Shown: one piece after another, positions 33,944 to 35,653 of the stretch
How the letters are laid out: every line of letters begins with the position of its first letter
Position numbering within the stretch: the stretch's first letter is position 1
From: a virus
Direction: 5' to 3' (one strand)
Virus record (IMG/VR): IMGVR_UViG_3300042934_001320
Span: 1-35,653 of that record
Length of the DNA stretch: 35,653 nucleotides
Program-made: the position numbers and the translations under genes
Notes under the pieces: model-generated
Database searches by the model: none
What the model was told of the DNA's origin: nothing
Seen by the model: the letters and a program-made list of their open reading frames with translations, nothing else

Positions 33944-34080
33944 AGCACGATCCTGCTCTGATCGATGTCGTTAAAGCGCTTGCGCGCGCTGCTGCCGCGC
34001 GGGACATTGCAGCCCGTGGAAAGGAACGAGGACGTGCGAACGGTAATCTACGCTCGGTTTTCCAGCCAGCTTCAAAATAG
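33940..34080 (+). CDS. 46-aa protein overlapping the recombinase start
   Basis: GTG 33940 overlaps the previous TGA, with GGGGAGG eight bases upstream. It encodes KHDPALIDVVKALARAAAA followed by a basic segment (RDIAARGKERGRANGN). The final 47 bases overlap the recombinase 5' end in another frame. The 'DP..I..VKALARAAA.RD' pattern recalls tiny proteins I have seen ahead of serine recombinases in alphaproteobacterial prophages. It might be a recombination directionality factor or a translation-coupling leader, which is an inference from position. Confidence 0.55.
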   Translation: MKHDPALIDVVKALARAAAARDIAARGKERGRANGNLRSVFQPASK

Positions 34081-35653
34081 CCGTTCGATCGACGATCAGA
34101 TCGCGGTCTGCCGCGAGCGAGCCGAGCGCGAGGGTTGGCAGATCGTCGACATATTCACCGACTATGCGATCAGTGGCGCGGCCGGGATCAGCGAAGCCCA
34201 GCGGCCAGGACTTGCGGCGTTGCTCGCGCGGGTCGAAGCCGGAGGCATCGAACAAGTGCTCGCCGAGGCGACCGATCGTATTGCCCGCCATCAGGGCGAC
34301 AGCTTTGCCATACGCGAGCGCCTTAGCTTCGCCGGCGCCCGCCTGTTCACTCTATCGGACGGCGAGGTCACCGACATTAGTGGCACCTTCAAGGGCCTCA
34401 TGGACGCCCAGTTCCGCAAAGAGCTTGGCGCCAAGATCAAGCGCGGCCAGCGCGGTACCGTTGCGGCTGGTCGATCACCTGCCGGGCTGGCCTACGGCTA
34501 TCGCACCGCCAATCGGATCGACGAGCAAGGACGACCGGTTCGCGGACTTCGCGTTGTCCACGATGAGCAGGCTGCGATCGTCAGGCGCATTTTTGAGGAG
34601 TATGCGAGCGGTCTGAGCCCGGTGAAGATCGCTGAGCGCCTGAACGCGGACGGGATCACTGGCCCGCGCGGCGATCGATGGCGCGCTACGACGATCCGCC
34701 CGGACAGAACGCGTGGCAACGGCTTGCTGCAGAACCAGCTCTACATCGGACGTTTGATCCACAATCGTACCTCCAAGGTCGTGGAGCCAATTTCACGCAA
34801 GACACGCATCAGGCCCAATCCTCCCGACGCATGGGTGATCGAGGAGGTGCCGCACCTCCGCATTGTCGAGCAGGCGCTCTGGCAACGAGTGCAGGAAGGG
34901 CTGCGGCGCCATTCGGGCATTCCCCCAGCGAAGGCCCGGCGTGCACGCCACATGTTCTCTGGCCTGGGTGTCTGCGGCAGCTGCGGAGGACCGTGGAACA
35001 TCAAGACAGCGAAATTCTGGGGCTGTGGTTCGCGCCAGGAGGGCAGCGGCTGCACCAACAATCGTCTGGTCTCAACCGATAGCTACGAGGCGAGGGTGCT
35101 GGAAGGGCTGCGTGAGCGCATGCTGGATCCCGAGCTCGTGAGTATCTTCGTGAAAGAGTACCACGAGGAGTTCGCGCGCCGCGCCGCTCAAACACGGCGC
35201 GACAGTACACAGCTGCAGCGCCGTCACGCAGAAGCATCTCGGAAGCTCGAGCGATTGGTTGAGGCGATCGCGTCCGGCGCCGGTGAGTTTGACGAATTCA
35301 AGGGCGCGCTGGCGAAAGCCCGCGCCGAACGCGACCAAGCGGCCGAGCAACTAGCAGAGGTCGAGGCGCTGCCCGTGGTCGCACTCCACCCAACAATCGC
35401 CGCGGAATACCGACGTCAGGTGGAGGAGCTGCACGTCGCACTGGCTGATCCGGAGGCGCGCATCCAGGCGGTGCCTGCAGTCAGAAACCTCATCGACCGA
35501 ATAGTGCTGACGCCCAATCCCGAGGGGCGCGGGGTGCTGATCCAGGTGGAAGGGAGGCTGGCTGCTATCGTGGCGCTAGCCACCGGCAGGGAGGCTCCGC
35601 CGCCACTTACTGCAAAGCTGGAGCGGGTGAAGGGAATCGAACCCTCGTCGTAA
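34034..35653 (+). CDS. large serine recombinase (phage integrase)
   Basis: 539 residues from GTG 34034, which has GGAACGAGGA just upstream and gives the family-typical opening MRTVIYARFSSQLQ; an ATG-less extension to 33965 is less likely. The resolvase catalytic domain (1-140) has Arg8 and nucleophile Ser10, with DRIARHQGD at 81-89. The recombinase domain spans about 150-290 (GLAYGYRT; AIVRRIFEEYASGLSPVKIA). A zinc ribbon follows (C314, C317, C331, C340), then a coiled coil (about 380-445). It would integrate and excise the prophage. Its last 11 codons are tRNA-Gly antisense sequence, so the C-terminus depends on the attachment site. Confidence 0.94.
   Translation: MRTVIYARFSSQLQNSRSIDDQIAVCRERAEREGWQIVDIFTDYAISGAAGISEAQRPGLAALLARVEAGGIEQVLAEATDRIARHQGDSFAIRERLSFAGARLFTLSDGEVTDISGTFKGLMDAQFRKELGAKIKRGQRGTVAAGRSPAGLAYGYRTANRIDEQGRPVRGLRVVHDEQAAIVRRIFEEYASGLSPVKIAERLNADGITGPRGDRWRATTIRPDRTRGNGLLQNQLYIGRLIHNRTSKVVEPISRKTRIRPNPPDAWVIEEVPHLRIVEQALWQRVQEGLRRHSGIPPAKARRARHMFSGLGVCGSCGGPWNIKTAKFWGCGSRQEGSGCTNNRLVSTDSYEARVLEGLRERMLDPELVSIFVKEYHEEFARRAAQTRRDSTQLQRRHAEASRKLERLVEAIASGAGEFDEFKGALAKARAERDQAAEQLAEVEALPVVALHPTIAAEYRRQVEELHVALADPEARIQAVPAVRNLIDRIVLTPNPEGRGVLIQVEGRLAAIVALATGREAPPPLTAKLERVKGIEPSS
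35619..35653 (-). tRNA. 3' part of tRNA-Gly; probable attachment site
   Basis: On the minus strand, 35653 to 35619 reads TT-ACGAC (variable loop), GAGGG-TTCGATT-CCCTT (T arm), CACCCGC (acceptor 3' strand), discriminator T and encoded CCA. An acceptor partner GCGGGTG with U73 is characteristic of tRNA-Gly. The anticodon half would lie beyond the window, so the isoacceptor is not visible. It may be the intact host gene or only the duplicated core. The recombinase stop codon TAA is inside it. Confidence 0.8.

Follow-up and report, generated by a model that had tools for sequence, protein, structure and literature searches.

A large serine recombinase gene that contains its phage attachment site and exchanges its C-terminal codons at a tRNA gene

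Introduction

The last gene of the window, by which we mean the whole 35,653-nucleotide stretch of viral DNA analysed here (G000:C36:53954-89606, minus strand), encodes a recombinase whose final codons are the antisense of a tRNA gene. This locus raises the question of whether the phage recombines within the coding sequence of the very enzyme that integrates it and, if so, whether the free and the integrated phage encode different versions of that enzyme. Known large serine integrases, such as those of phiC31, Bxb1, TP901-1 and A118/LI, have attP beside the integrase gene, and their attB sites reside mostly in protein-coding genes. In the text of a survey of 6,207 large serine recombinases, tRNA is not mentioned (PMC10083194).

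Results

The gene (34034-35653, plus strand) starts with GTG, ends with TAA and encodes 539 amino acids with the C-terminus LERVKGIEPSS, which represents the prophage form of the protein. Its domain order, catalytic serine and zinc-binding cysteines identify it as a large serine recombinase (integrase), while catalysis itself is inferred. Pfam matches include Resolvase (PF00239, 5e-19), Recombinase (PF07508, 9e-23) and Zn_ribbon_recom (PF13408, 2e-6), the catalytic serine and zinc-binding cysteines are kept (S10, C314, C317, C331 and C340 are invariant in comparison with 15 relatives), and the best PDB sequence match is the TP901-1 integrase. In the AlphaFold model, the domains close with a beta-hairpin and a helix, up to residue 517, and the C-terminal tail comes after the final beta-hairpin of the zinc domain. 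Disorder is predicted for this tail (pLDDT <50 for residues 524-539). A functional effect of the tail is not obvious from the model and, since it is a disordered extension, any role must lie in contacts, turnover or regulation.

Once the sequence was extended to the right of the window, ARAGORN located a complete tRNA-Gly(CCC) at C36:53915-53988. The 3' part of this tRNA gene, including the CCA, acceptor, T arm and beyond, occupies positions 35619-35653 of the window on the minus strand, and the gene continues past the window end. The TAA stop codon of the recombinase sits inside the tRNA gene in antisense and is host DNA. The original prediction, made from sequence alone, that the recombinase C-terminus and stop codon are antisense to the 3' part of a tRNA-Gly thus held at the same positions. 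The final 18 bp of the tRNA (TTCCCTTCACCCGCTCCA), corresponding to the attachment core TGGAGCGGGTGAAGGGAA at 35619-35636 on the plus strand, are repeated in the same orientation outside the window, at C36:95153-95170, and near the element this is the only further copy. The two copies are attL and attR; they lie 41 kb apart, with the distal copy 5.5 kb beyond the window, and the element as a whole is approximately 41.2 kb long and extends 5.5 kb past the window start. Around the distal att site, a consensus search found neither a promoter nor a terminator. The prediction had assigned the last 11 codons to the tRNA; since the duplicated core is 18 bp long (35619-35636), purely host sequence is restricted to the last five codons and the stop (IEPSS and TAA, 35636-35653, plus strand).

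For reconstruction, attP was obtained by joining the phage-side flanks and attB by joining the host-side flanks. The reconstructed attP lies within the open reading frame, which passes through the core and into TRQERNWLKAEA followed by a stop codon, giving a protein of 546 aa ending ERVKG-TRQERNWLKAEA in the circular phage versus 539 aa ending ERVKG-IEPSS in the prophage. Upon integration only the residues after 534 change, and all domains remain in the prophage reading frame. For the element in the window, attP is reconstructed and not sequenced.

A sequenced pair shows the same exchange independently of attP reconstruction. The free phage RR1-A encodes an integrase of 543 aa ending in GGRVVAGERFEQSPQIILGRFVA (tail VVAGERFEQSPQIILGRFVA), while prophage L252, which is 88% identical to RR1-A and its sister on the tree, encodes one of 537 aa ending in GGRMVAGEGLEPPTRGL (tail MVAGEGLEPPTRGL). 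The two proteins differ exactly as predicted. With regard to the unoccupied locus, neither flank of the window genome's own site was syntenic in 100 genus relatives and its empty site was not found. The empty-site test was run on G470 instead, whose reconstructed 550-bp attB matched uninterrupted DNA of G908 (full length, 90%) and of G881 (79%).

Homologues were gathered from viral contigs, genomes and phages. Most of them end within a tRNA gene, with the termini GIEPSS, GIEPS or GIEPL at tRNA-Gly and GLEPPTxGL or GFEPxTFRL at tRNA-Met. Among related recombinases, the overlapped gene is tRNA-Gly(CCC), tRNA-Gly(TCC) or tRNA-Met(CAT), with offset and reading frame unchanged, and the overlap is therefore not due to chance. 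Approximately 20 elements from Alphaproteobacteria share the arrangement, at tRNA-Gly or tRNA-Met. Besides the window element, both core copies were located in 18 prophages, plus G969, and the shared core always begins at the CCA end and has a length of 12 to 21 bp. In 16 elements whose reconstructed attP gives a short tail, the reading frame across attP yields a different C-terminus; together with the RR1-A/L252 pair, these bear out the claim that integrated and circular phage encode different tails. That tRNA 3' ends are less usual targets for serine integrases is a fair statement, but they are the rule within this recombinase family.

Since exceptions exist, the tail swap is common but not universal. 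In G278 the stop codon lies 7 nt before the tRNA, which places attP outside the reading frame, and in L083/L104, which are one and the same gene, the frame reads through the entire tRNA in another phase. L066/G495 has its core in the opposite orientation to int, and int resides at the end far from the tRNA. Long attP-side readings are found in G302, G289 and G969, and a sub-clade near phage JY29 is without tRNA overlap.

Palindromy was scored in 21 attP sequences, two of which are sequenced phage records (RR1-A and JY30). The maximum falls at positions 11/12 of the tRNA 3' end, counted on the antisense strand, with a mean of 13.35 matches out of 23 versus 5.93 (sd 1.07) when averaged over all centres. 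The attP arms pair with their own partner and not with the arms of other elements, and re-pairing between elements abolishes the palindrome (p=2e-4). The reconstructed attB sites are far less palindromic than attP (7.1 vs 14.3). The LI integrase structure has contacts to a 25-bp attP half-site (PMC3783163), and the attP palindromes fit the half-sites of this length that are expected of a large serine recombinase. This fit is shown for the family and is weak for the window element alone (9/23); the individual palindromes of RIT328, A2-49 and G101 are likewise weak. The int-side half of attP, or P arm, at 35604-35629 (plus strand) falls within the coding sequence, with the left half-site in the gene body and the right half-site within the native tail codons. 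The shortest core, that of G470, is 12 bp long and finishes exactly at position 12. Based on the palindrome centre and this shortest shared core, we infer the crossover dinucleotide to be GA at 35629-35630 (plus strand). The claim that crossover happens within the recombinase coding sequence therefore held, with the exact dinucleotide remaining an inference.

The tail encoded by the free phage is conserved as a protein feature. Among the 18 attP-form tails that end promptly, 14 have their stop exactly 42 nt beyond the crossover, three at 48 nt and one at 24 nt, and TAA, TAG and TGA all serve as stops. For the tails of the tRNA-Gly(CCC) group (TRQERNWLKAEA, TRRKRTFLKANV, TRHKRKFLMATV, IGRKRTFLKAQV and TRHKRTFLKAQV), the minimum numbers of changes at codon positions 1, 2 and 3 are 5, 6 and 19, and pN/pS is 0.26-0.31 with synonymous sites near saturation. 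Their amino-acid identity exceeds that of codon-shuffled columns both for the whole tail (p=6e-4) and for the last six codons (p=2e-4), and the column-shuffle result is equal in a tRNA-Met group. Conservation of the DNA site alone is insufficient for the last codons because these lie outside the 25-bp half-site. The final residue is A, V, L or I in all 18 short attP tails against a background of 33%, the lineages not being independent, and the mean net charge of the exchanged part in 12 elements is +3.3 in the phage form versus -0.8 in the tRNA-encoded prophage form. Thus, the native tail is basic, of fixed length and closed by A, V, L or I. That selection acts on the isoform with this tail is supported by conservation only, and no measurement stands behind any difference in activity between the isoforms.

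Discussion

The mechanism we propose is, taken as a whole, very likely. The entire attP would occupy the last ~90 bp of the recombinase gene as two ~25-bp half-sites that flank a crossover placed at antisense positions 11/12 of the tRNA. As long as the phage is circular, the conserved basic C-terminal tail native to the enzyme, with its fixed length and its A, V, L or I ending, would be encoded by the codons past the crossover. On integration at the tRNA-Gly(CCC) 3' end, phage-borne sequence would rebuild the tRNA, and the native tail codons would be shifted to the far prophage end, 41 kb away. The recombinase would receive in their place a short tail and a stop codon that come from the antisense strand of the tRNA, and its last dozen amino acids would be replaced. 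The C-terminus would then differ between the enzyme produced upon infection, which carries out attP x attB, and that produced by the prophage, which excises by attL x attR, and excision would return the gene to its native form. The genetic arrangement is very well supported, and it is very likely that the free and integrated phage encode two enzyme versions, their expression being inferred. With no expression or activity data, any effect of the swap on activity, directionality or stability is likewise an inference, as is the expression of both forms, and a functional switch is plausible but unproven. A read-through form, which had been considered possible, did not hold up, as the tail is replaced instead. 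The proposed link between enzyme properties and integration state held in part, namely only for the existence of two isoforms and for selection on one of them; data on a difference in activity are lacking.

The principle is already known; what appears new is to find it in serine integrases, together with a native tail under selection. No report of an attP inside a serine integrase gene with a changed C-terminus was found in the open-access text searched, and absence there is no proof. In the Myxococcus phage Mx8, attP lies inside the coding sequence of the tyrosine-family integrase IntP and integration creates a new int 3' end (PMC6070905, a review citing Tojo 1996 and Magrini 1999, on which our account of Mx8 rests). 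Both systems have attP inside int and gain a new C-terminus upon integration, but the present enzyme belongs to the large serine recombinases, its attP is a palindromic site of the serine type, and the family is spread over many Alphaproteobacteria at tRNA-Gly or tRNA-Met. In BPs-type mycobacteriophages, attP is inside the repressor and integration removes a degradation tag (PMC4557955), and in the M. abscessus prophages MabB and MabK, attB overlaps a tRNA 3' end, MabB gaining seven host-encoded residues (PMC8092301). These share with our element an attP within a reading frame and a C-terminus swapped or truncated upon integration; however, they involve a split repressor and a tyrosine integrase, whereas here the recombinase gene itself holds attP, without evidence for a role in immunity. 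The archaeal suicidal tyrosine integrases of SSV1, pTN3 and pT26-2 also carry the attachment site in their own gene, in many cases at a tRNA gene, but those genes are cut in two and inactivated (PMC8371274), while here the change is confined to a short tail and leaves every catalytic and DNA-binding domain complete. In domain order, catalytic serine, zinc ribbon and a ~50-bp attP of two half-sites, the recombinase resembles those of phiC31, Bxb1, TP901-1 and A118/LI (PMC10083194).

The most basic objection is that another enzyme uses the tRNA for integration and that the recombinase only happens to lie next to it. Tyrosine integrases are indeed usual for phage elements in tRNA 3' ends, but a Pfam search gave no Phage_integrase (PF00589) match within the prophage or elsewhere on C36, the same recombinase-tRNA overlap recurs in many unrelated prophages and the attP palindromes suit a serine recombinase, so that such a coincidence is all but excluded. 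The absence of a PF00589 match in the element rules out a tyrosine integrase as the true enzyme, and a chance overlap of reading frames is ruled out by the recurrent tRNA overlap, the fixed tail length and the codon-level conservation. A more serious alternative is that the swap is neutral, attP being placed at the int 3' end for compactness and both tails being tolerated as disordered extensions. In its favour, disorder is predicted for the tail, tails differ among distant members, the swap is absent from some elements, and the tail partly overlaps the P' half-site, which means that constraint at the DNA level contributes. Against it, the native tails of the CCC group keep their amino acids at near-saturated synonymous sites (pN/pS as above), and the conservation includes the last codons outside the half-site, the fixed length and the hydrophobic end. 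On balance we lean slightly away from neutrality.

Two functional roles for the exchanged tail remain possible, each on its own rather unlikely. By analogy with the repressor and integrase of mycobacteriophage BPs, the basic tail could be a protease tag that limits Int during infection, with the tRNA-encoded tail giving a stable prophage form. The A, V, L or I ending of every short attP tail speaks for such a stability switch, but AA-like end motifs occur in only some tails, tags are poorly recognised from sequence alone so that degradation is inferred, and a basic tail could equally contact DNA. Alternatively, the native tail may aid attP x attB synapsis or oppose excision, its loss helping the prophage Int to excise together with a directionality factor. 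Each form is encoded exactly in the state where the opposite reaction occurs, the tail comes after the final beta-hairpin of the zinc domain, and integration of Mx8 alters its integrase without abolishing it, the prophage enzyme being reported as still active with changed specificity (PMC6070905). However, no directionality factor was identified for this element, and to our knowledge no role of the tail in directionality has been described, the studied serine integrases using a coiled coil and a directionality factor.

A bolder reading of the proposed mechanism is that a widespread group of large serine recombinases recombines its own gene to produce two isoforms, one with a conserved basic native tail in the free phage and one with a host-tRNA-antisense tail in the prophage, which would set the reaction direction or the enzyme lifetime. 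We see the arguments for and against this reading as nearly balanced, with a slight tilt against it. If true, it would represent a genetically encoded control of directionality or stability beside the directionality factor. The arrangement ties integration state to recombinase structure via the att site itself, and provides many natural matched pairs of free-phage and prophage forms for probing the effect of the tail on directionality or turnover. Further, the annotated prophage recombinase sequence differs from the sequence that performs integration and, as a result, assays of genome-mined recombinases with an att site in their own gene may be using the wrong form. Prophage calls based on gene boundaries also cut these elements short.

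Additional observations

The 5.5 kb of the prophage beyond the window start (C36:89607-95153; L005:3608-9153) contains a DUF892 gene and an AAA ATPase that hits PDC-S59, a candidate defence model of PADLOC, at 1e-22. PDC-M32A is matched weakly, and three genes have no family match; these are possibly defence cargo.

In the L083/L104 gene (Sandaracinobacteroides hominis), the antisense frame spans the whole tRNA-Gly and ~70 nt beyond, and several dozen C-terminal residues are therefore host-encoded. In L066 and L157/L163 (IMGVR_UViG_3300031413_000016), a related prophage whose core has the opposite orientation to int, the tRNA is rebuilt far from int, yet the int frame crosses the core. L250 (G968) and L256 (G969), in which a tRNA-like stretch continues through the stop codon, were considered as counter-examples and were not taken as phages carrying the whole tail. 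The int-adjacent tRNA-Met sequence of both stops just past the anticodon, near which they diverge into other DNA, and the distal core of G969 is 13 bp; this pattern suggests a further rearrangement inside the tRNA, or a second element, at the anticodon loop.

Convergent pairs of related serine recombinases ~93 bp apart were observed in G394:C1:2014342-2017605 and G822:C43:8150-11410, and may share or face one attachment site. Repeated VKMVAG(T/A) units occur in the int C-termini or attP-side readings of L126, L123 and L128, which could reflect an in-frame build-up of several tRNA-Met core copies. On the attP side of G381 (L172/L173), a terminator-like GC hairpin was identified by eye immediately after the stop codon of native int; by analogy with retroregulation, integration would part this hairpin from int.
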